From: an uncultured Mycoplasmatota bacterium
Lineage (GTDB): Bacteria > Bacillota_I > Bacilli_A > RF39 > UBA660
Direction of reading: 5' to 3'
Length of the DNA: 33,908 nt
Assembly: GCA_947302655.1 (NCBI GenBank)
Contig: CAMYVW010000005.1
Coordinates: 1 to 33,908, forward strand
Numbering within the stretch: position 1 is the first letter of the stretch; each line of letters opens with the position of its first letter. Of this stretch, positions 1,584 to 30,740 are shown in pieces. A model generated the notes under the pieces. It saw only the letters and a program-made list of their open reading frames with translations. It was not told the origin of the DNA and did no database searches. The translations under genes and the position numbers were made by a program.

Positions 1584-2669
1584 TTATTCCTCCACCTGAC
1601 TATTGTTTACTTTAATCAATTTAGCTTTTGATAACATATCATCACTAAAATAATCAATATTAGTAGTAGTAATAAAAGTTTGTACTTTACTACTTAACAT
1701 ACCTAAAATATTATTAATTTTATTTTTATCAAGTTCACTTGATAAATCATCAAAAATTAATATTGGATAATAACCTTTAATTTGTTTTACAATATCAATC
1801 TCAGATAATTTAAATGATATAATTGCGTTTTTTTGTTGGCCCTCAGACCCACAATCTTTTAAAGATAAATCATCTAAATTAAAATTGATATCATCTCTAT
1901 GAATTCCAAATGTTGTTTTACCCAAAAATAAATCCTTTTTTAAATTAGAACTATATTTTGACAAAATTTCTTTTTTAGATAATGAATAATCACTTACATA
2001 AGATATAGATAATTTACCAGAACCAAATATTTGATAATAATTATCACTAATAGATTCTTTAATCATATTTAAAAATTTATTTCTAGCTTCGTAAATTTTA
2101 ATACCATAATCTACTAGTTTTTCAGTCATAATATTTAAATAATTTTTTGATAAATTACCATTAATGTTCATTTCTTTTAAATAAATATTTCTTTGTTTTA
2201 AAATTTTGTTATATCCATTTAGATATAAAACATAATTTCTATCCAATTGTGATAGTTCTATATTTAAAAGTTTTCTTCTAAGTGCAGGTGAATCTTTTAT
2301 TATTCTTAAATCATCAGGATTAAATAAAATCATGAACATATTTGAAATATAATCACTTAATTTATTAACCTTATTATCATTAATTTTTAATCTTTTTTCG
2401 TGGTTTTGAAGTATTAGTTGATAATTATTAGTTTCATTATTAGAAGTGATATTAGCCTCCACTTTTAAAACATTTTTTCCATTCATTATCATTAATGAAT
2501 CGTTATTTGTTCTAAAAGACTTCGTTAATGAAAGTGCATAAATAGCTTCAACTACATTTGTTTTACCATGACCATTTAATCCATATATAATGTTTATATT
2601 TGGATCAAAATCAAAATTAATTGATGAATAAGAACGAAAATTTAGTAATTTTAAACTATCAATTTTCAT
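1584..2669 (-). CDS. recF: DNA replication and repair protein RecF
   Basis: RecF is an SMC-like ATPase that, with RecO and RecR, loads RecA at single-strand gaps behind stalled forks. The 361 residues match the usual family length. The N-terminus has the expected [14 protein letters not shown] segment followed by the Walker A motif GLNGHGKTN near residues 30-38. The signature motif [17 protein letters not shown] lies near residue 272 and the Walker B motif [12 protein letters not shown] near residue 303. An AAAGAGGTAAT ribosome site precedes the ATG. The gene is in the standard dnaA-dnaN-x-recF-gyrB order, and gyrB starts one base after its stop. An upstream promoter and a palindrome at its expected transcription start are listed separately. 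Confidence 0.97.
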
Positions 2670-2713
2670 AATTACCTCTTTTTAGGCTCATATTTGATTT
2701 TTTATATTTTTGC

Positions 2714-2725
2714 GTACACCTGTAC
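2714..2725. promoter_or_regulatory. Palindromic element upstream of recF (possible operator)
   Basis: GTACACCTGTAC consists of two 5-base inverted arms (GTACA and TGTAC) around a 2-base centre. It falls just downstream of the predicted recF -10 box, about where transcription should begin, which is a common repressor position. I found no second copy in the window. The regulator is unknown; the motif does not match the Bacillus LexA box. Confidence 0.35.
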
Positions 2726-2734
2726 CTAATAAAA

Positions 2735-2763
2735 ATTATAACATAAAAATTGATTATTTTAAA
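2735..2763 (-). promoter_or_regulatory. Predicted sigma-A promoter for recF-gyrB
   Basis: On the minus strand a TTTAAA -35 (2763-2758) is followed after 17 bases by a perfect TATAAT -10 (2740-2735). The -35 overlaps the stop codon of the comK-like gene. In such AT-rich DNA the -10 is the convincing part. Confidence 0.5.
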
Positions 2764-3211
2764 GTAAATTCACATTTTTTCTATATCTAATTACACTTTC
2801 TAATCTCGAAGATCTCATAATTTGATTATTAATAATATCATAGGAACAATTTAATATAATTTCCTTGCCATTTATTAAGAATAATTTACAACTAGACGGC
2901 ATTTTTATATATCTATTAACATATTTATTTCTGATCCATGAACAATTACATAATCTAGGAGAATATGTAGGAAAAAATACTATTTCTTTACTTTCTTCAA
3001 TAATTATAGGTGCTTTATGAGTTAAACCTGTTAAGTTTTTAGTTCCATCTACTCTACCCTTATAACTTGATCCAAAATATTCACAACTATATTTAATAAT
3101 ATCAGTTGGTAACTTATTAACTATAAATGTATTATCTTTTTCATATACTATAGTTCTATAGTTATCAAATATTAATGCTATTGTATTATCATTTATTTCA
3201 TAAGTATTCAT
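2759..3211 (-). CDS. comK: ComK-family competence transcription factor-like protein
   Basis: The 150-residue protein resembles ComK, the master activator of DNA-uptake genes in Bacillus, which binds AT-rich boxes in DNA. The best-matching stretch is SCEYFGSSYKGRVDG (residues 42-56), followed by LTHKAPIII, a FFPT segment and CNCSWI (residues 88-93), the same order as in Bacillus ComK (CRFFGSSYAGR, SHKPPI, FPT, CGWI). It is about 40 residues shorter than the Bacillus protein (192), lacking the C-terminal tail. The ATG has a strong GGGGGAT ribosome site. It sits between dnaN and recF, where yaaA (an S4-domain gene) normally is. It has dnaN's terminator upstream and a promoter for recF overlapping its stop, so it may be a separate transcription unit. 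Whether it still activates competence genes is unknown; no uptake genes are in the window. Confidence 0.85.
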   Translation of the reverse strand: MNTYEINDNTIALIFDNYRTIVYEKDNTFIVNKLPTDIIKYSCEYFGSSYKGRVDGTKNLTGLTHKAPIIIEESKEIVFFPTYSPRLCNCSWIRNKYVNRYIKMPSSCKLFLINGKEIILNCSYDIINNQIMRSSRLESVIRYRKNVNLL

Positions 3212-3255
3212 AAAAATCCCCCAATAAAAAATTAAATAATTTATTTATAACACAT

Positions 3256-3285
3256 AAAAAGACCATATTTTGTCGAATATAGTCT
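3256..3285 (-). terminator. Intrinsic terminator after dnaN
   Basis: On the minus strand AGACTATATT (3285-3276) pairs with AATATGGTCT (3269-3260) in a 10-bp stem containing one G-U pair, with a 6-base loop and then a run of five T. The stem begins inside the dnaN stop codon. It separates dnaN from the comK-like gene. Confidence 0.8.
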
Positions 3286-4396
3286 AATAAGTTTTAATTG
3301 GTAAAATTAATTGAATTAATGATTCATCATCAACTGATTTTATGATAATTGGTTTTATATCACTATTTAAAAGTAATAATACATCTTCATCTTTAAATGT
3401 CTTTAAAGCATCAATCATATATTTAGAACTAAATGAAATTTCTAATTTTTCTTTATTATTAGATTCAATAATTAAAGTTTCTTCAACCTTTCCAATTTCA
3501 GAAGCAAATGAATTAATAATCATTTTATTATCTGAAATTGTCATCTTAACAATATTTTTATCTTTTCCTTGTGTTAATAAAGCAGCTCTATCAATTGAAG
3601 AAAAGAAATCATTTAAATTTATTTTAATTATATATTTAAATTCAGTAGGAATTAAATTGTTAGTATTTGGGTAATTACCAGCTAATAAATTTGTTTGAAA
3701 ATATATATTTAAAAATTTAAATAATACTTTGTTATTAAAAATATGTATTTCAACATTTTCATCATTAGGAAGCGTTTTTTCAAGTTCTATAATATTTCTA
3801 CCAGGAAGAATAATATTTAATTCTGACTTACTATCAACTTTTTCAGTTTTTTTAGCAAGTCTATAAGAATCAGTTGCAACACATTCTAGGTTATCAGCCA
3901 TTATTTTAAAATTTAAACCAGTAAGTAATGGTCTTAATTCTTGTGTTGATATTGCAAATATTGTTTGATGAATAATATTTTTTAATTTATTACTATTAAT
4001 AATAATAGGATCTTTACTTTCTTCTATTTTGATTGTTGGATATTCACTTGCTTCCATGCAATTTAAATTATATTGACTATTTTCTGTAAAAATCTTAACT
4101 TTTAATCCATCAACTACCTCAAAATTAATAACATCACTAGGCATCTTTCTTATTATATCTAGTAAATATTTACTTTGAATAATAATAATACCTACCTTAT
4201 CAACATTTTTTATATCTTTAATATCAATAAGTTGTTTTATATTTAATTCACTATCACTTGCAGTTAAATATAAACCTTCCTTTTTTAATTCAAATTTAAT
4301 TCCATTTAATATAGGTATTATATTTCTTGATGATATTGCTTTAGATACATTATTTAAAGCTTCTAAAATAACACTTTTTTCAATTGAAAATTTCAT
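3284..4396 (-). CDS. dnaN: DNA polymerase III sliding clamp (beta subunit)
   Basis: The beta clamp is a ring-shaped dimer that tethers DNA polymerase to its template and recruits repair and replication partners. The protein has 370 residues, close to the family norm, with the typical three-fold repeat of clamp domains. It begins MKFSIEKSVILEALNNVSKAI and ends in LIQLILPIKTY, the C-terminal strand lining the partner pocket. Recognisable stretches include CVATDSYRLAKK near residue 173 and AGNYPNTNNLIPTEF near 239. The ATG has an AAGGAT ribosome site. It follows dnaA in the same direction, with a 130-base gap containing four DnaA-box-like 9-mers, and ends in its own terminator. Confidence 0.98.
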   Translation of the reverse strand: MKFSIEKSVILEALNNVSKAISSRNIIPILNGIKFELKKEGLYLTASDSELNIKQLIDIKDIKNVDKVGIIIIQSKYLLDIIRKMPSDVINFEVVDGLKVKIFTENSQYNLNCMEASEYPTIKIEESKDPIIINSNKLKNIIHQTIFAISTQELRPLLTGLNFKIMADNLECVATDSYRLAKKTEKVDSKSELNIILPGRNIIELEKTLPNDENVEIHIFNNKVLFKFLNIYFQTNLLAGNYPNTNNLIPTEFKYIIKINLNDFFSSIDRAALLTQGKDKNIVKMTISDNKMIINSFASEIGKVEETLIIESNNKEKLEISFSSKYMIDALKTFKDEDVLLLLNSDIKPIIIKSVDDESLIQLILPIKTY

Positions 4397-5872: not shown

Positions 5873-5918
5873 CCTTATCACCCCACTAACCTAACGATTA
5901 AGTTTATTTTAAAACAAT

Positions 5919-6093
5919 TGTTGATAAATTAAAACCCTAAATTTGGTAAAATTAGTTATCAACATCACTTATAAACATTTATTTGTAGGAATAATGGTTA
6001 ATAAATTAAGTTATTAACATTATCCACAATTTTATATTTAGTTATAAACAATCCACAATTATTAATTTTTTTATCAACAAAAAATGTTAATAA
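5919..6093. other. oriC: Replication origin region (oriC) with DnaA boxes
   Basis: The roughly 305-base gap between the divergent dnaA and rpmH genes carries one perfect DnaA box, TTATCCACA at 6020-6028, directly abutting TTATTAACA (6011-6019). Around it are near-consensus copies: TGTTGATAA 5919-5927, TTATCAACA 5956-5964, TTATAAACA 5969-5977, TTATAAACA 6042-6050, TTATCAACA 6071-6079 and TGTTAATAA 6085-6093. The DNA is almost all A and T between boxes, so a discrete unwinding element cannot be picked out by eye. Position beside dnaA, box density and both-strand orientation make this the likely initiation site. Ordinary sequence in so AT-rich a genome will produce some one-mismatch boxes by chance, so the count should be treated cautiously. 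Confidence 0.85.
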
Positions 6094-6116
6094 CTACATT
6101 TTTATAAGGTTTTTCC

Positions 6117-6146
6117 TTGACTTTCAATTGTTTATAATATTATAAT
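6117..6146 (+). promoter_or_regulatory. Predicted sigma-A promoter for rpmH
   Basis: TTGACT (6117-6122) is followed after 18 bases by TATAAT (6141-6146), about 32 bases ahead of the rpmH start. It is one of the best -35/-10 pairs in the window and lies just past the last DnaA-like box. Confidence 0.7.
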
Positions 6147-6177
6147 AAACACGCTTATTAGTTTTGGAGGTGGAAAT

Positions 6178-6309
6178 ATGAAAGCTAACGGATGTACATA
6201 TCAACCAAATAATAGAAAAATGAAGAAAAAACAAGGTTTTTTTGCAAGAGTAGAATCTAAAATTATCAATAGACGTCGTGCAAAAGGAAGAAAGAGATTA
6301 ACAAAATAA
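6178..6309 (+). CDS. rpmH: Large ribosomal subunit protein bL34
   Basis: This 43-residue basic protein is ribosomal protein L34. It starts MKANGCTYQPNNRKMKKK and ends RRRAKGRKRLTK; the TYQPNNRK and RRRAKGRKRL blocks are family hallmarks. It is preceded by an ideal TTGGAGGTGG ribosome site and by a promoter. Compared with the common form (MKRTFQPNNRK...), it has three extra residues after MK (ANG) and about four fewer in the middle, where the family has an NGR-containing loop. It lies divergent from dnaA next to oriC, the standard place, with rnpA downstream. The L34 identity is secure; the two length changes are unusual. Confidence 0.97.
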   Translation: MKANGCTYQPNNRKMKKKQGFFARVESKIINRRRAKGRKRLTK

Positions 6310-6331
6310 CCACTTTATTGTGGTTTTTTTT
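6308..6331 (+). terminator. Hairpin terminator or attenuator between rpmH and rnpA
   Basis: AACCAC (6308-6313) pairs with GTGGTT (6320-6325) around a 6-base loop and runs into eight T. The stem is short, so read-through to rnpA and yidC is likely; it may set the high rpmH to low rnpA expression ratio. Confidence 0.7.
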
Positions 6332-6358
6332 GAATAATTATATAAGAAGGGATAAAAT

Positions 6359-6700
6359 ATGAAGAAAAAATTTATAATTAAAAGTCCTGATGACTTTAAT
6401 AAAATAATTAATGATGGAAAAAAAGTTAAAGGAAATATAATAACTTTATATTATTATCCTTCTGATGATAATAAATCATATTTTGGTTTTGCTGTAGGAA
6501 AAAAAACAGGTAACGCTGTTGATAGAAATAAGGTAAAAAGAAAAATAAAAATGATAGTTCATAATAACCAATTTTTATTTTCAAACAAATATAAATATAT
6601 TATAATGTTAAGGAAAGATTGTTTATTATTTTCTCATGAACAATGGGAAAAAGACTTAATAAACACTATAGGAAAGGTAAACGAAGATGAAAAAAATTAA
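6359..6700 (+). CDS. rnpA: Ribonuclease P protein component
   Basis: RnpA is the small basic protein partner of the RNase P ribozyme, which removes the 5' leader of pre-tRNAs. The 113 residues are rich in lysine. The family signature is GNAVDRNKVKRKIKMIV near residues 52-68, which contains the RNA-binding RNxxKR motif. A FGFAVGKKTGN strand comes just before it. The ATG has an AGAAGGGAT ribosome site. It follows rpmH and overlaps the start of yidC by 14 bases, so the two are co-transcribed. The catalytic RNA gene rnpB was not found in the window. Confidence 0.97.
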   Translation: MKKKFIIKSPDDFNKIINDGKKVKGNIITLYYYPSDDNKSYFGFAVGKKTGNAVDRNKVKRKIKMIVHNNQFLFSNKYKYIIMLRKDCLLFSHEQWEKDLINTIGKVNEDEKN

Positions 6701-7691
6701 GTCAGCAGTTTTAATACTTTTAATGGTAGTATTATTAACAGCATGTGGATCAGCAATAAAAAATAAAGATAAGAAAGCAGAAATTTATAAACCAACAGGT
6801 CAAACACTTCAAAATAATATTTTATGTAAACCAACAAAAAAAGATTTAATTGAGTTATATAATAAATATGATAAACAATTAAAAGTATCAATGAAAAAAC
6901 TTCCAGCATGTAAGAATTTTAAAATAAATTCAAATAAAAGTAAGAGTTTATGGGAGTTTATATTTGTTAAACCTCTTGCATATATAATTTTAAAACTAGG
7001 ATATGCTATAAAGAATTTTGGTTTATCTGTAATGATAGTTGGTATATTGATAAGGATAATACTATTACCATTTTCAAAGAAAAGCCAATTACAATCACAA
7101 AATCTTCAAAAAGCTACCCCTGAAATACAACAACTAGAAATTAAGTATAAGGATAAAACTGATTCAGAATCATTAATGCAAAAGAGTCAAGAAACAATGA
7201 TGATTTATAAGAAATATGGTGTTAATCCATTATCAGGATGTTTACTTGCTTTCATTCAGTTACCACTATTCTTTGCTTTCTTACAAGCAATTAATAGGGT
7301 ACCAGCTATTTTTGAAGGAAAATTCTTAGGTTTATCATTAGGAATGACTCCAACTACAGGAATTTCAAAAGGAAATTATGTATACTTAGTTTTAGTTGCA
7401 TTAGTTCTTTTAACAACATATTATTCATTTAAAAAGACTTTATCTCAAACTGCAACAGCAGGACAAGGACAAAGTAAATCAATGTTAATAATTATGCTAA
7501 TAATGATATTTGCAGCATCATTTAGTTTACCAACAGCGCTTGCATTATATTGGATTTCAACAAATGCATTCATAGTAGTTCAAAATTATATTATTGATAA
7601 ATCTGTACAAAAAGATGAATTAAAAAATAAGAAAAAAACACAAAAGAAGATTTCAATAAAAGAAAAAGTAGAAAAAAGAAGAGGTAATTAA
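6687..7691 (+). CDS. yidC: Membrane protein insertase YidC (SpoIIIJ/OxaA type)
   Basis: YidC inserts proteins into the cytoplasmic membrane, alone or with SecYEG. The 334-residue protein opens with a lipoprotein signal peptide whose lipobox is LLTACGS (Cys20), typical of the Gram-positive short form without the large periplasmic domain. The core begins LWEFIFVKPLAYIILKLGYAIKNFG (in two pieces) near residue 88, followed by RIILLPFSKKSQ, PLSGCLLAFIQLPLFFAF and ALALYWISTNAFIVVQNYI. The conserved Arg of the hydrophilic groove is in the GILIRIILLPF segment. The tail is strongly basic, suited to ribosome binding. It overlaps rnpA and is followed after one base by khpB. In spore formers one paralogue supports spore development; only one copy is visible here. 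Confidence 0.96.
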   Translation: MKKIKSAVLILLMVVLLTACGSAIKNKDKKAEIYKPTGQTLQNNILCKPTKKDLIELYNKYDKQLKVSMKKLPACKNFKINSNKSKSLWEFIFVKPLAYIILKLGYAIKNFGLSVMIVGILIRIILLPFSKKSQLQSQNLQKATPEIQQLEIKYKDKTDSESLMQKSQETMMIYKKYGVNPLSGCLLAFIQLPLFFAFLQAINRVPAIFEGKFLGLSLGMTPTTGISKGNYVYLVLVALVLLTTYYSFKKTLSQTATAGQGQSKSMLIIMLIMIFAASFSLPTALALYWISTNAFIVVQNYIIDKSVQKDELKNKKKTQKKISIKEKVEKRRGN

Positions 7692-7692
7692 T

Positions 7693-8301
7693 ATGAATTA
7701 TGAAGTATTTACTGCAAAAACCTTAGAAGAAGCTTTAGAAGAAGCTAAAACAAAACTTGATTTAAAAGAAGATACATATATATATAGTTATGAAGAAACA
7801 AAAGGTAAATTATTTAAATCAGGAAGTTTTAATGTAAAAATATATCTAATTGAAGATGTTTGTAAATATTTAAAAGAATATTTAAAAAAATTAACTTCAG
7901 ATATGGGAATTGAAGTTAACTTTGAATCAAAAATTAGAGAAAAAAATATTGAAATTAAAATGATATCTGATAATAATCCTATATTAATAGGTAGAAATGG
8001 ACAGACATTAAAGGCATTAGAATGTATTTTAATGCAAGTTGTTAATAAGGAAACTGGTAAACATATAAGAGTAATGCTTGATGTTGAAGGTTATAAAGAA
8101 AAACAAATAAAGAGACTAGAGAGACTTGCTATTAACTTAGCTAAAGATTGTGTTAGAACAAAAACTGATATACATATGGATTCAATGAATGCATATGAAA
8201 GAAGAATAGTTCATAATAAACTAACAGATTTTAGAGGAGTTAAGACAGAAAGTATTGGTGAAGAACCAAATCGTCATCTAGTAATTAAATATGATAAATA
8301 A
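7693..8301 (+). CDS. khpB: RNA-binding protein KhpB (Jag/EloR)
   Basis: This 202-residue protein has the three Jag parts in order: an N-terminal Jag domain (VFTAKTLEEALEEAKTKLDL), a type II KH domain with the RNA-binding loop IGRNGQ (residues 99-104), and a C-terminal R3H domain with NAYERRIVH near residues 166-174. In other Firmicutes this protein works with KhpA in binding RNAs and influences cell elongation. The distance to yidC is one base, the usual yidC-jag pairing. A GAGGTAAT ribosome site lies inside the end of yidC. A strong terminator follows. Confidence 0.95.
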   Translation: MNYEVFTAKTLEEALEEAKTKLDLKEDTYIYSYEETKGKLFKSGSFNVKIYLIEDVCKYLKEYLKKLTSDMGIEVNFESKIREKNIEIKMISDNNPILIGRNGQTLKALECILMQVVNKETGKHIRVMLDVEGYKEKQIKRLERLAINLAKDCVRTKTDIHMDSMNAYERRIVHNKLTDFRGVKTESIGEEPNRHLVIKYDK

Positions 8302-8326
8302 GATATTTCCCAGGAAATATCTTTTT
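8302..8326 (+). terminator. Intrinsic terminator after khpB, also a Noc-site match
   Basis: GATATTTCC (8302-8310) pairs perfectly with GGAAATATC (8313-8321) across a 2-base centre, followed by five T. Within it ATTTCCCAGGAAAT (8305-8318) differs by a single base from the published Noc-binding palindrome ATTTCCCGGGAAAT. As an RNA hairpin the two-base loop would open to four bases. It ends the rpmH-khpB unit. Confidence 0.8.
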
Positions 8327-8345
8327 ACATTAGAAAGGTGATTTT

Positions 8346-9707
8346 ATGGAAGATACTATATGTGCCATATCCACTTCTAAAGGAGTAGGGGCTATTTCAA
8401 TAATTAGAGTTAGTGGTAATGAAGCAATAGAAATTGTAAGTAAAATATTTAAAGGAAAAGATTTAAAAAAAGTTGAATCCCATACTATTAACTATGGTCA
8501 TATTGAATATAAAGATGAAATAATTGATGAAGTATTAGTATCAGTTATGAAGGGTCCTAAAACATTTACGACAGAAGATATAGTTGAAATAAATACTCAC
8601 GGTGGTATAGCCCCAACAAATAAAGTATTAGAAATACTTTTAGAAAATGGTTGTAGACTGGCTGAACCAGGAGAATTTACTAAAAGAGCATTTTTAAATG
8701 GAAGAATAGATCTTTTAGAAGCTGAAGCTGTTATGGATATGATTGATTCTAAAACAGAAATTCAAAGAAAAATGGCTTCAAACCAAATAAATGGTAAAAC
8801 TTCAAATTTAATTAATGAACTAAGAGATGATATGGTTCAGATTATATCTAATATTAATGTTAATATTGATTATCCTGAATATGATGATGTAGATATTGTT
8901 ACAAATGATGTTTTAATTCCAAAAATTGCTAAATTAAAAGAAAGAATTAATAAAATATTAAAAGAGTCAGAAAATGGTAAATTAATTAAGGAAGGAATTA
9001 AAACTTCAATAATTGGTAGACCCAATGTTGGAAAGAGTAGTTTACTTAATGCTCTTTTAGAAGAAGATAAAGCTATTGTTACTGATATAGCAGGAACTAC
9101 AAGAGATATAGTAGAAGGACAAATATCTATAAACGGAATATTGCTTAACATTATAGATACAGCTGGTATTAGAAATACTGATGACATGATTGAAGCTATA
9201 GGAGTAGAAAAAAGTATTAAAACTATGGATGAATCAGATTTAGTATTATTTATGCTTAACAATAACGAAGAAATAACTGATGATATTAAAGAATTATTAT
9301 CAAAAGTAAAAGATAAAGAATATCTTATACTTATCAATAAAACAGATCTAGAATCCAAATTAGATTTAAATAGTATAAATGTTGATAAGAATAGAGTAGT
9401 GTACTTAAGTATCATTAATAATAAAGGAATTGATGAATTAAAAGAAAAAATTTCTGAATTATTTAATATTAGTGATATAACATCAACAGATCCTACATAT
9501 TTAAACAATGCTAGAAGTATTAGCATATTAAATAAATGTTTAAATAAAGTAGAAGAAGTAGAAGAAGCTGTTAAAAATAATATGCCTATAGATATGATAG
9601 AACTTGATATCAAATCTATATGGGAAGAATTAGGTACTATAAATGGTAGTACTTATGAAGAAGAATTATTAGATGAAATGTTTAAAAGGTTCTGCCTAGG
9701 AAAATAA
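8346..9707 (+). CDS. mnmE: tRNA uridine-34 modification GTPase MnmE
   Basis: MnmE acts with MnmG to add the carboxymethylaminomethyl group to the wobble uridine of certain tRNAs. The 453 residues begin with the folate-binding N-domain (MEDTICAISTSKGVGAISII), with AEPGEFTKRAFLNGRIDL near residue 106. The inserted G domain has G1 GRPNVGKSS (224-232), the AGTTRD switch, DTAGIR and NKTD. The C-terminus is FCLGK, matching the conserved CxGK ending whose Cys is catalytic. The start follows a GGTGAT ribosome site. MnmG follows nine bases after its stop, or 18 with the start preferred here. Confidence 0.98.
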   Translation: MEDTICAISTSKGVGAISIIRVSGNEAIEIVSKIFKGKDLKKVESHTINYGHIEYKDEIIDEVLVSVMKGPKTFTTEDIVEINTHGGIAPTNKVLEILLENGCRLAEPGEFTKRAFLNGRIDLLEAEAVMDMIDSKTEIQRKMASNQINGKTSNLINELRDDMVQIISNINVNIDYPEYDDVDIVTNDVLIPKIAKLKERINKILKESENGKLIKEGIKTSIIGRPNVGKSSLLNALLEEDKAIVTDIAGTTRDIVEGQISINGILLNIIDTAGIRNTDDMIEAIGVEKSIKTMDESDLVLFMLNNNEEITDDIKELLSKVKDKEYLILINKTDLESKLDLNSINVDKNRVVYLSIINNKGIDELKEKISELFNISDITSTDPTYLNNARSISILNKCLNKVEEVEEAVKNNMPIDMIELDIKSIWEELGTINGSTYEEELLDEMFKRFCLGK

Positions 9708-23980: not shown

Positions 23981-24496
23981 ATGAAAAAATTAAATTGGCC
24001 CATTAAAGTTTTTTTTATTACTTTTATTTTAGCAGCAATATTTAGTGCTGCAAGTAACTTACTTGCTGATTTAAATATTATAATGCTATGTATAGCATTA
24101 GTAATAGTTATATCAATAGGAATACTATTTGATATGATAGGTGTTGCTGCACTAACAAGTAAAAAAGAAAACTTTCATGCTATGGCATCAAAAAAAATTA
24201 AAGGTGCAAAAGAAACAATAAATTTACTTAATAAATCTACTATGGTAGCAACAATATGTAATGATGTAGTTGGTGATATTTGTGGTATTGTTAGTGGTGG
24301 ATTAGGAGCTGTTTTAGCAATAACAATTGCAAATAATACTTCTCTTAATATTGTTATATCAACAATAATTGTAACAGCATTTATATCTGGTTTTACTGTA
24401 GGTGGAAAGGCACTTGGAAAATCAACAGCAACAAAAAATGCTGATAAGATAATTTTTTTAACAGCTAAAATCAAGAAAGTGTTAACTTTTAAGTAA
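23981..24496 (+). CDS. oapA: OapA-like membrane protein (OLE RNA partner)
   Basis: The 171-residue protein has about four membrane segments (near 8-28, 33-55, 103-121 and 124-142). After the second is a basic stretch, SKKIKGAKETINLLNKS. The third is preceded by NDVVGD, a DxxxD motif with Asp95 and Asp99. OapA, the protein that binds OLE RNA in Bacillus halodurans, is a membrane protein with a functionally important DxxxD motif at a similar place. The DUF21-like fold is the wider family. The ATG has an ideal GTGGAGGATT ribosome site directly downstream of the structured RNA. If the RNA is not OLE, this remains an uncharacterised membrane protein. Confidence 0.78.
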   Translation: MKKLNWPIKVFFITFILAAIFSAASNLLADLNIIMLCIALVIVISIGILFDMIGVAALTSKKENFHAMASKKIKGAKETINLLNKSTMVATICNDVVGDICGIVSGGLGAVLAITIANNTSLNIVISTIIVTAFISGFTVGGKALGKSTATKNADKIIFLTAKIKKVLTFK

Positions 24497-27135: not shown

Positions 27136-27393
27136 ATGAATAAGGAAAAATTGTTCATTGCCAAAGATGAAAATGGTGTGGAACATGAATATGAAATGCT
27201 TTTAGTTAAAAGAGTAGATGACAATTCTGTGGTTTGGTATACCGATGGAACTTATGATGATGAAGGAAGAAAAAATGTATATATTTCCGAATATGAAAGG
27301 TTAGGAAATACATTTATGCTTAATCCTGTTGGAAACGATGACAAATTGGAAAAATACGCTGATATGTTTACAAAAGAGTATAACGAAGAATAA
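27136..27393 (+). CDS. DUF1292 family protein
   Basis: This acidic 85-residue protein matches the DUF1292 pattern of small Firmicute proteins (YrzB-like). The features are an opening DENGVEHEYEMLLV, a central segment with V and Y residues, and an ending with E- and D-rich sequence. Family members commonly sit beside holliday-junction or mreB-linked genes and have no known function. It has an extended -10 promoter and a clear terminator, so it is its own unit between spoIIQ and the agr locus. The distance from AAGAAGG to the ATG is long (13 bases). Confidence 0.8.
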   Translation: MNKEKLFIAKDENGVEHEYEMLLVKRVDDNSVVWYTDGTYDDEGRKNVYISEYERLGNTFMLNPVGNDDKLEKYADMFTKEYNEE

Positions 27394-27454: not shown

Positions 27455-27487
27455 TGCTAATAGCAAAATAGAGGAGTGAATCCAATT

Positions 27488-28192
27488 ATGATAAAGTTTG
27501 TTATAGTCGAGGATGATGAAAAAACCCTAAAGAATATAAAAGAAATTATAGCTAAAGAAAAGTACAAAATTGATACTGAAGTAAAAACATATGAATTTAA
27601 AGGTTATAACAAACAGTTATCTTCATTGATTTCAAATCCAGAAGAAAAAACTATTTATATTCTTGATATTGAACTAGAAAACAGCAAGTCAGGTATTGAA
27701 ATAGCATCCATGATTAGAAGTAACGACTGGGATAGTGAAATAATCTTTATAACAAATCATGATAAAATGTTTGAAACTGTACATCGTAATGTCTATGATG
27801 TTTTTGATTTTATCGAAAAATATCATGATTTAAATAAAAGATTATCAAAAGATATCAAAGCTATATTAAATAGAACAAAAGATAAAAAACTATTCTCATA
27901 TAAAGGAAGGAATATAGATTTACAACTTTATATGAATTCAATAAATTATATTTATCGTGATAAAGAAGATAGAAAAGTGGTTATTGTTACTGATAATTCA
28001 AGTTATTCAATAAATCTTGGAGTAAAAGAAATATTAGCAGAACTTGATGATAGATTTAAAATGGTTCATGGATCATGTATTGTGAATACTGATAAAGTAG
28101 TAACGTATGACTGGAATAAATCAAAAATTATTTTATCAAATGGTGAAGAAGTAAACTATTTATCAAAAAAATATAAGAAGGGTATTAGTTAA
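27488..28192 (+). CDS. agrA: AgrA-like LytTR response regulator
   Basis: The 234-residue protein has an N-terminal receiver domain and a C-terminal LytTR DNA-binding domain, the AgrA/ComE architecture. The receiver carries the acidic pair in IVEDDEKT, the phospho-acceptor Asp60 in IYILDIELE, the Thr in IIFITNH and the Lys in DFIEKYH. The LytTR part includes INYIYRDKEDRKVVIVTDN and the FKMVHGSCIVNTDKV block typical of the family. GAGGAG lies 11 bases before the ATG at 27488; a GTG at 27476 opens the frame but overlaps that site. It precedes the kinase by two bases. Its expected role is to activate the agr operons in response to the peptide signal. Confidence 0.92.
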   Translation: MIKFVIVEDDEKTLKNIKEIIAKEKYKIDTEVKTYEFKGYNKQLSSLISNPEEKTIYILDIELENSKSGIEIASMIRSNDWDSEIIFITNHDKMFETVHRNVYDVFDFIEKYHDLNKRLSKDIKAILNRTKDKKLFSYKGRNIDLQLYMNSINYIYRDKEDRKVVIVTDNSSYSINLGVKEILAELDDRFKMVHGSCIVNTDKVVTYDWNKSKIILSNGEEVNYLSKKYKKGIS

Positions 28193-28194
28193 GT

Positions 28195-29463
28195 ATGTGG
28201 TTATTGATTTTAAAAGGTTTATTAATATTATTTACTTATATATTTTTATACTATGCAACCATTTCAGTTAGTGAAATTAAAAAGAAAACTAACTATATAG
28301 ATATTATAATAATTATTATTGTTGCAACATGTAATGTATTTGCAAATAAATATAGTGAAAACACTTTAAAAGGAATAGTAACTTTACTAGGATTTATAGC
28401 TTTTTCAATTAGAAGAACAAAGGCACCTAAGGAAGGTGTTGTTAATGGTTTTGTTGTTTATGTTTATGCCATAATTGGAGATATACTCTCAGCTATGCTA
28501 GTATCTCTTTCAGGTTACTCAGATTTTATGGTAAAAGCAAGTAATTTAAGTATAGTTAAACTAGCATATTGTTGTTCACTTGGTTTAGTAATGTTTTTAG
28601 TTATTAATATAAAAACGATAAACAAATTTATTAAATATTGTATAAAACATCTGTCAAAGTCTAAATATGTTTTATCATTAATATTATTAGTTGGTTTTTT
28701 ATTTGAAACAAGCATAATTATCTCTATTACAAACATGACAAGTTTAAAACAAAATATTTTAGCTTATATTTTATTAGTTAGTATTGGTGTTGGTGTATTT
28801 GCACTTATATATAACATTACTAAAAAAGATGAATTAAAACTTATTAATCAAAATCTAATTATTAACAATGAATCATTTATGAAAATTATTAACAATTATA
28901 AATTATTTAAACATAATTTTAAATATGAACTAAATGCAATTAGTTTAGTAGGTGACGATAAAGTAAAAAAACTTATTAAATCATATCTTGATGAATATGA
29001 TGTAAAATCAAGTTTTGATAATTCAGATCTAATGAAACTACCAAGTGGTATAAGAAATTTAGTGTATAGAAAGTTACTTGAATCAACTGATACAAATTGT
29101 AACATTGTTGTTGATAACTTTATTAATTATGATCCATTTGAAAATATATCAATTAAAAAAATGTGTAAATTAATGCAGTGTTTAGGAATAATACTTGATA
29201 ACGCAATTGAAGAAGCGATGCAAACTAAAAGCAAATATATTTATATCAAGATTTCTGAAGATGAAAAGAATAATATTATCTTTGAATGTCATAATCAAAT
29301 TAAGAATAATATAGATATTGATTTAATAGGTATAGAAAAAGAATCAAATAAAGCTGACCATATGGGTGTTGGTACAAGCTACCTTGTAAAGCAAAAAGCA
29401 TTTAAGGTAACAAATGTTATCAGAAATGATATATATAAAGTATCTTTAAAATTTAGTGTATAA
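28195..29463 (+). CDS. agrC: AgrC-like sensor histidine kinase
   Basis: The 422-residue protein has an N-terminal sensor of about six membrane segments (residues 3-207) and a cytoplasmic kinase. The phospho-acceptor is His240 in LFKHNFKYELNAI, a variant of the HPK10 motif in which the usual Asp after His is Asn. The ATPase domain is the GHKL_5 type: CLGIILDNAIEEAM holds the N box, IFECHNQI follows, and ADHMGVGTSYL holds the G box. This is the layout of AgrC and other peptide-pheromone receptors. It follows agrA by two bases, the reverse of the agrC-agrA order in Staphylococcus. The stop codon adjoins the terminator shared with the convergent agrBD genes. Confidence 0.92.
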   Translation: MWLLILKGLLILFTYIFLYYATISVSEIKKKTNYIDIIIIIIVATCNVFANKYSENTLKGIVTLLGFIAFSIRRTKAPKEGVVNGFVVYVYAIIGDILSAMLVSLSGYSDFMVKASNLSIVKLAYCCSLGLVMFLVINIKTINKFIKYCIKHLSKSKYVLSLILLVGFLFETSIIISITNMTSLKQNILAYILLVSIGVGVFALIYNITKKDELKLINQNLIINNESFMKIINNYKLFKHNFKYELNAISLVGDDKVKKLIKSYLDEYDVKSSFDNSDLMKLPSGIRNLVYRKLLESTDTNCNIVVDNFINYDPFENISIKKMCKLMQCLGIILDNAIEEAMQTKSKYIYIKISEDEKNNIIFECHNQIKNNIDIDLIGIEKESNKADHMGVGTSYLVKQKAFKVTNVIRNDIYKVSLKFSV

Positions 29464-29494
29464 AAAACCATCATGAAGATATCATGATGGTTTT
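29462..29494. terminator. Bidirectional terminator between agrC and agrD
   Basis: AAAACCATCATGA (29464-29476) pairs perfectly with TCATGATGGTTTT (29482-29494) around AGATA. The plus strand ends in four T and the minus strand in six, so it can stop both convergent units. The agrD stop lies four bases away. Confidence 0.9.
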
Positions 29495-29497
29495 AAA

Positions 29498-29617
29498 TTA
29501 TAACAATTCTTTTGGACATTCAACTGGATCAAAATGCCATATTAAGCAAGCTGAGCTTTCAGCACCAGAAAAACCATTTGCAAGTTTTTCTAACAAGTCA
29601 GATATAAGATTTCCCAT
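29498..29617 (-). CDS. agrD: AgrD-like autoinducing peptide precursor
   Basis: This 39-residue open frame is too short for standard gene finding. It reads MGNLISDLLEKLANGF (an amphipathic leader), SGAESSA, the core CLIWHF (24-29) and DPVECPKEL (30-38). The last part aligns residue by residue with the Staphylococcus AgrD recognition tail DEVEVPKEL, differing only at two positions. In the family AgrB cleaves just before this tail and closes a thiolactone between the Cys and the new C-terminus, predicting a ring from Cys24 to Phe29 (six residues; the common ring is five). The extra N-terminal tail length is not predictable. AAAGGAGGATT lies three bases before the ATG. It follows agrB by 31 bases on the same strand. 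Confidence 0.9.
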   Translation of the reverse strand: MGNLISDLLEKLANGFSGAESSACLIWHFDPVECPKELL

Positions 29618-29648
29618 TAAAATCCTCCTTTCATTTTAGATTAAATAA

Positions 29649-30239
29649 TTATCTATATGTTTTATAATTATTCCTCTCTAATCCTAATAATTTATATGAG
29701 ATTGGATTAATAGCTATTGATGATAAACATAAAGCTACTAATATACAATTTGAATATTTAAATTCAGTTGTAATAATTATTAAAGAATATAAAAGAGAAA
29801 TAATAATGGATATATACTTAAATATCATTCTTTTTTTCTTATTAAGTAGTGGTCTATATTTTGTATCTGAAGGGGCCCAAAAAATAAAGCTTATCAGTGA
29901 AATAGTACATATAGTAATTTTTATAGGAAATATAATTTCAAATGTTTTTATAATAAATATACTTATTGAATAAGAAGATAATGTTATTATCCAACATAAA
30001 ATATTAGAGTTACCATGTACACCATGAATGAATGTTCTTAATAATCCATAGAATATAAATATCAAAACTACCTCCGTTAAAGATTTAAAAATAAGAGCTA
30101 ATAAAATAATAATTGTTGTTTTAATTAAAAAGTTATACATAACTTCTAGTCCGTATTTAATTTTAATTTTTTCATAGTCGCTTAGATGTTTATGTTTAGT
30201 TATAAGATTAAATGAATTATTAATTAATATGTTTTTCAT
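29649..30239 (-). CDS. agrB: AgrB-like peptide-processing membrane endopeptidase
   Basis: AgrB is a membrane cysteine protease that cleaves AgrD and forms the thiolactone. The 196 residues have about five or six membrane segments. The catalytic pair is His75 and Cys82 in RTFIHGVHGNSNILC; the separation of seven residues equals that of His77 and Cys84 in Staphylococcus AgrB. An Arg seven before the His matches the conserved arginine. After the core is DTKYRPLLNKKKR, a basic loop common in the family. The gene lies upstream of agrD, as in the family. The ribosome site is weak (GGTGAA, six bases before the ATG). Confidence 0.93.
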   Translation of the reverse strand: MKNILINNSFNLITKHKHLSDYEKIKIKYGLEVMYNFLIKTTIIILLALIFKSLTEVVLIFIFYGLLRTFIHGVHGNSNILCWIITLSSYSISIFIIKTFEIIFPIKITICTISLISFIFWAPSDTKYRPLLNKKKRMIFKYISIIISLLYSLIIITTEFKYSNCILVALCLSSIAINPISYKLLGLERNNYKTYR

Positions 30240-30524
30240 AATACATTCACCGCGAAAAACATATCATTTAAAAATTATGAAAAATCGTAAGTTGATTTAA
30301 TTAAATTGTTACAGGTTTTAATAATTAATTTATAATTAATAGAAGCAAAAATTTATCGTTTTAAGCATAATAGTTGTTATTTAAAACAAAGTGGAAGAAA
30401 TACTATATTTATATTTGATATATTGATAGAGTCCTGGCAAAAAATGTAATAATTTGTCGACGATTATTTGTTGAAAGCAAAAGGGATGGTGTGATAGTTT
30501 ATTTTTGAGGGAGAGGTGAGAGTT
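30240..30524. promoter_or_regulatory. Divergent control region between agrB and the cold-shock gene
   Basis: About 285 bases with no gene. The right half has a likely csp promoter: TTGATA (30423-30428) and TGTAAT (30445-30450), 16 bases apart, giving a leader of about 68 bases. In the left half I see no convincing promoter for agrB; CATAAT (minus, near 30276) is only weakly supported. TAAGTTGAT at 30288-30296 resembles half of a LytTR-type repeat but lacks a clear partner at the expected spacing. Confidence 0.4.
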
Positions 30525-30740
30525 ATGCGAGGTAAGGTGAAGTGGTTTAACAATGAGAAAGGATACGGATTTATTGAAAATGGTGATCTAGAAGATATAT
30601 TTGTTCACTATTCTGCCATAATAAAAGACGGTTATAAAACGCTTAAAGAAAATTCGTACGTATCTTTCAAACTTATCGAAACATCAAAAGGTTTGCAAGC
30701 TGTTGATGTTATCGAAGAACAACTAACTACAAATATGTAG
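30525..30740 (+). CDS. csp: Cold-shock domain protein (CspA family)
   Basis: The 71-residue protein is one cold-shock domain that binds single-stranded nucleic acid and acts as an RNA chaperone. It has both RNA-binding motifs: KGYGFIENG (RNP1) and DIFVHYSAI (RNP2), with GKVKWFNNEKG at the start. The frame is open from a GTG at 30516, but the ATG at 30525 follows GAGGTGAG and starts at the conserved MRGKVKWF. The end overlaps its terminator. A leader of about 70 bases suggests temperature-dependent RNA folding, as for other csp genes, though not shown here. Confidence 0.96.
   Translation: MRGKVKWFNNEKGYGFIENGDLEDIFVHYSAIIKDGYKTLKENSYVSFKLIETSKGLQAVDVIEEQLTTNM

Follow-up and report, generated by a model that had tools for sequence, protein, structure and literature searches.

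In Staphylococcus aureus the agr genes form one agrBDCA operon, and the divergent promoters P2 and P3 serve agr and RNAIII. Some clostridia are known to have agrBD and agrCA in separate operons and to make six-residue pheromone rings (PMC12312760, PMC10301443); in Clostridium acetobutylicum, which has the split operons and a six-residue AIP ring, agrCA lies upstream of the Agr-controlled CA_C0082 (PMC10301443). The chromosomal order A-C-D-B is that of agr2 in Clostridioides difficile R20291, for which a single transcript (agrACDB) has been reported (PMC3754575). Split operons, this gene order and six-residue rings are each precedented singly; in the open-licence literature we found no description of convergent agrCA and agrBD pairs, of cspA as a divergent partner, or of agr in the family studied here.

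The window, a stretch of 33,908 nucleotides from an uncultured Mycoplasmatota bacterium (contig CAMYVW010000005.1; GTDB lineage Bacilli_A; RF39; UBA660), probably carries a working agr-type peptide quorum-sensing locus of lineage-specific layout, in which AgrA would switch both agrBD and cspA through the divergent spacer. Its features are as follows.

27488-28192, plus strand: agrA, response regulator with a Pfam receiver domain (PF00072) and a LytTR DNA-binding domain (PF04397), Asp invariant
28195-29463, plus strand: agrC, sensor kinase with PF14501 (HATPase_c_5, GHKL) after six hydrophobic segments
29464-29494, no strand assigned: hairpin in the gap where agrC and agrD converge, a putative bidirectional terminator that folds on both strands with an MFE of about -17 kcal/mol
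29498-29617, minus strand: agrD, 39-aa pheromone precursor conserved in position and motif, Shine-Dalgarno AAAGGAGGAT upstream
29649-30239, minus strand: agrB, membrane endopeptidase/cyclase (PF04647) with His75/Cys82
30258-30263, minus strand: putative extended -10 of the agrB promoter (TG-A-TATGTT), 24 nt before the start codon
30293-30322, minus strand: O2, weak second direct repeat facing agrB, an inverted operator copy
30359-30388, plus strand: O1, LytTR-type operator TTTTAAGCA-N12-TTTAAAACA with period-21 repeat, candidate AgrA site
30416-30424 (-10 at 30419-30424), plus strand: extended -10 (TG-A-TATATT) of a putative cspA promoter activated by AgrA
30453-30461, plus strand: Spo0A (0A) box-like TTTGTCGAC upstream of cspA
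30525-30740, plus strand: cspA, cold-shock-domain protein (PF00313, 86 bits), divergent from agrB and linked to agr in the family

The pair agrA-agrC on the plus strand converges on agrD-agrB on the minus strand, as an earlier sequence-only reading had described for positions 27488-30239. The list of open reading frames agrees with it at every coordinate, and that reading was also right to call all four parts intact, with four open frames, catalytic residues kept and an AgrD-like precursor present. The ATG of agrA is preceded by GAGGAG, and the frame is extendable to an upstream GTG at 27476; a small DUF1292 protein that is kept in the genus (27136-27393) is encoded just upstream. The stop codons of agrC and agrD are 34 nt apart (family median, 33.5 nt), and this gap is occupied by a strong 13-bp hairpin, stable on either strand, where a terminator between the gene pairs had been proposed. 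Its folding z-score is about -5 to -6, none of 200 shuffles is equally stable, and most relatives also have a hairpin between agrC and agrD.

Compared to S. aureus agr, the locus shares the AgrB fold with its His/Cys pair, the AgrD motif, a GHKL-type AgrC, a LytTR-type AgrA, and beside agrB a divergent AgrA-controlled spacer, the control being predicted here. However, it is not a staphylococcal-type agrBDCA operon with RNAIII: agrAC is convergent to agrDB, cspA stands in the place of RNAIII, and the predicted ring has six residues instead of five. In contrast to C. acetobutylicum, agrA precedes agrC, the two pairs are convergent, and cspA diverges from agrB (PMC10301443). The order A-C-D-B is shared with C. 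difficile agr2, whereas the gene orientations here point to two opposing transcripts rather than one (PMC3754575).

The family set comprised 83 loci of ~3-8.6 kb, from which HMMs were built, or 84 with the window, all data being from MAGs. AgrB was found in 129 of 193 sampled family genomes (64 had no match), with one copy in the 1.04-Mb genome of the window. The arrangement agrA>agrC> <agrD<agrB is present in 76 of the 84 loci, the window included; six of the other eight stop at contig ends, and two have AgrC farther off. Names and synteny of the relatives were obtained via SecA, and the named ones (SecA identity 70-92%) are MAGs of Bacilli from rumen and gut, Candidatus Coprovivens among them, where the usual site is spoIID-spoIIQ-agr-cspA-hpf-secA. 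Listeria and other Bacilli have homologous genes, but in the outgroup, which sampled only other families of the same class, none of 15 loci with adjacent AgrC (13 distinct) is convergent, and agrB and agrC share a strand in all of them. The layout is not special to this genome; convergence goes back to the ancestor of the whole family. An origin from a phage or plasmid was considered and rejected: no phage match was found, and only two Listeria records bear a plasmid label.

Several family loci contain additional frames. In L057, L067, L079, L109 and L118 two AgrC-like kinase frames lie adjacent to each other, which perhaps reflects two pheromones, and some of these frames may be broken genes. 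In L059 a 424-aa membrane protein (2499-3773, minus strand) sits between AgrC and AgrA; one segment of it weakly resembles AgrB (with H-x6-C), and its C-terminus is HTH-like, and frames of 412-427 aa resembling it occur in several genomes. The interpretation of ~420-aa ORFs with weak AgrB matches as AgrB-AgrC fusions was dropped because the C-terminus of the one examined is not a GHKL kinase. Elsewhere in the window, an OLE RNA (RF01071, 23464-23956, ~493 nt; 194 bits, E 4e-53) is directly followed by a gene for a 171-aa membrane protein, possibly OapA (23981-24496). OLE RNA lies at the same place in seven related contigs, and the gut lineage therefore holds a compact OLE RNA family. An L31-Firmicutes ribosomal protein leader (RF03156, 24553-24583; 34.8 bits) was also detected, as in five of the seven relatives scanned.

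AgrB passes the family model PF04647 with 105 bits (3.8e-30; cut-off 23), a check that had been suggested with the sequence-only reading; a comparison of the AgrB profile with solved structures gave no match. The His75/Cys82 pair, pointed out in the same reading, is conserved in all 83 homologues. AgrC has six TM-like segments followed by the GHKL kinase domain, in which the phospho-acceptor His240 is 100% conserved in 72 homologues and the DNA motif (N box) and the G box are also invariant. The phospho-acceptor of AgrA, Asp64 counted from the GTG and Asp60 from the ATG, is likewise 100% conserved in 70 homologues. On the NCBIfam AgrA equivalog model AgrA reaches only 44.5 of 400 bits and is therefore not a staphylococcal orthologue. 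Identity within the genus is 72-74% for AgrA and only 27-38% for AgrC, which fits a fast-evolving receptor. A CPBP-family membrane protease, encoded once in the genome, is a candidate for removal of the pheromone leader, by analogy with MroQ, which has this role in S. aureus. Decay or loss of function of the agr locus in this genome seems scarcely credible: agrB has been lost in some relatives, as in the 64 genomes without a match, and agrBD in a same-genus locus described below, but here the four frames are open, the catalytic residues intact, and the ribosome-binding sites and operator present.

AgrD has an N-terminal amphipathic helix whose moment exceeds that of more than 99.9% of shuffles, and its predicted core reads ...SSA-CLIWHF | DPVECPKELL, with the acidic, proline-containing tail expected of an AgrD precursor. 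It matched no Pfam or NCBIfam model; its position and motif are conserved in 77 family loci, which answers in the affirmative the earlier question of agrD conservation. For ring size, residues were counted beginning with the nucleophile and stopping just ahead of the DE(P) recognition motif, which presumes the staphylococcal cleavage position. On this count the predicted ring of the window has six residues, and those of the Cys-type AgrDs have six in 60 of 68 cases (including L065, L077 and L101, whose rows were re-read by eye as six), seven in six cases and five in two. Nine precursors have Ser or Thr replacing the Cys; as their position was preset at six in the count, they say nothing of their own about ring size. 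Outgroup precursors mostly have five-residue rings. Known staphylococcal rings have five residues, those from relatives of C. acetobutylicum and from certain further clostridia six, and that of E. faecalis nine (PMC12312760, PMC10301443). With six already known in some clostridia, the predicted ring is unusual but not new. A single family in which rings vary naturally in length, from five to seven residues, and in chemistry (Cys, Ser or Thr) offers material for studying the co-evolution of AgrB and AgrC.

Across the family, agrB and cspA diverge from a spacer with a median length of 279 nt. We searched the spacers by EM for two 9-bp boxes at a fixed period, trying periods 12-31. Period 21 was the best, with a log-likelihood of 198, compared to 151 for the runner-up, which is the cspA 0A/-35 region, and to 31±6 (maximum 44) in 30 dinucleotide shuffles. 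When the model was trained on one half of the loci and applied to the held-out spacers, 35 of 72 passed at p<0.05 (~4 expected); roughly every second spacer has no recognisable operator. The consensus, TTTNARACA-N12-TTTNARACA, differs in its letters from the S. aureus AgrA repeat consensus; 9-bp repeats with 12-bp spacers are typical of LytTR regulators (PMC2766830; PMC6193735), and LytTR-activated promoters have a repeat/-10 geometry resembling that at O1 (PMC6193735). With only the repeats as anchor, 23 of 40 loci have an extended -10 (TGnTAnnnT) 29-30 nt past O1 toward cspA, compared to 0-2 at other offsets. The sequence has the marks of a LytTR-activated promoter, namely 9-bp repeats, a 12-bp spacer and a fixed -10 distance. 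A genome-wide pattern search for this composite O1/-10 promoter yielded one exact match in the 1.04 Mb, at agr, and the next place requires two mismatches. A LytTR-type operator in the divergent agrB-cspA spacer, kept family-wide and accompanied by an extended -10 toward cspA, appears to be new; like the linked divergent cspA and the six-residue ring, it was absent from the sequence-only reading.

On the side of agrB, an O2-type inverted copy recurs 64-67 nt from O1 across the family, and extended -10 boxes gather 22-28 nt upstream of agrB. O2 is weak in the window: its box 1 is poor, whereas the genus conserves box 2 (ATTAAATCA). Scanning the AT-rich window for promoter-like sequences gave nothing informative, and an Rfam search of the spacer gave no match. 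Upstream of agrA, six of 67 regions pass the operator test versus ~3 expected, which is no enrichment beyond chance. The proposal that the split allows independent control of signal production and sensing is partly supported by this distribution of LytTR-type operators, upstream of agrB and cspA and not enriched upstream of agrA; the regulation itself is predicted.

The 0A box of the window, TTTGTCGAC, is one letter off the consensus, TGTCGAA (PMC3485338). TGTCGA occurs in 31 of 72 spacers versus 1.9 expected, mostly 64-102 nt upstream of cspA, and Spo0A is encoded in the genome, which supports the earlier view of a sporulation-capable Bacilli host. The spacer could also be read in another way, which we consider rather unlikely: a standard agr quorum-sensing cassette, repeats that belong to another regulator, and cspA as a mere neighbour with a Spo0A-driven promoter. 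The strong conservation of the 0A box at cspA agrees with it, as does L190, where cspA has a 0A-like box in a locus with neither agr nor O1. In some seven agr loci that have been relocated and are not linked to cspA, the region upstream of agrB likewise has no operator copy. However, the repeat spacing is exactly of the LytTR kind, the single composite site of the genome adjoins agr, and the repeat, missing in L190, is kept in L181, each of these being one locus.

In L181 (same-genus MAG RGIG8154, 5910-8367) agrBD is cleanly absent within a continuous contig. The genes agrA, agrC and cspA are retained, together with a hairpin, the 0A box, and O1 and its -10; genome G002 has a matching agr region. 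Judging from L181, L190 and the relocated loci, O1 accompanies agrA plus cspA. Nearly all named loci without agr at the usual site also have no cspA there. Because the relocated agr loci without cspA have no O1, control of cspA by AgrA is better supported than control of agrB, and the predicted AgrA feedback on agrB is the less secure of the two. Separately, in L187 cspA adjoins a solitary LytTR regulator (7240-7941) whose receiver domain is altered, with no AgrB or AgrC match beside it.

L181 is a candidate listen-only species. Its agrAC without agrBD would also suit a reading in which AgrB/AgrD make a modified peptide directed chiefly at competitors, or at receptors of the host or of neighbours, while AgrCA responds to another signal, and so would the highly divergent AgrC sensor regions (17-38% identity). 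We regard this as very unlikely: agrAC and agrDB are side by side in nearly all loci, as cognate partners should be, and no immunity or export gene is linked.

Altogether, the best reading is an agr variant with a divergent switch like the staphylococcal P2/P3, predicted to have cspA in RNAIII's place. AgrB would cut AgrD before the DP/DE(P) recognition motif to give a six-residue thiolactone (predicted CLIWHF), and the exported peptide would be sensed by AgrC, leading to phosphorylation of AgrA. AgrA would then bind the direct repeats in the agrB-cspA spacer and activate, rather than repress, two promoters, with more signal and positive feedback from agrBD and the output from cspA. The location of the switch between the signal genes and cspA suggests what the signal turns on. 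As agrAC would be transcribed on its own, convergent to agrDB, and no AgrA site was detected for it, the receptor level would lie outside the loop, and Spo0A acting at the cspA box would join crowding and sporulation inputs.

It is possible, and we propose it tentatively, that this uncultivated, small-genome family of gut Bacilli runs quorum sensing essentially via one divergent promoter region, where AgrA acts on its own pheromone genes and on a cold-shock RNA chaperone, a direct output that replaces RNAIII and is co-controlled by Spo0A, and that some species eavesdrop with the listening half only. A divergent AgrA switch beside agrB may thus persist with a protein-coding gene replacing RNAIII and with the receptor genes unlinked from the feedback. 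The lineage is widespread in the gut and has hardly been studied by experiment, and the locus would provide for it a concrete quorum-sensing circuit, with predicted pheromones and a predicted direct target promoter.
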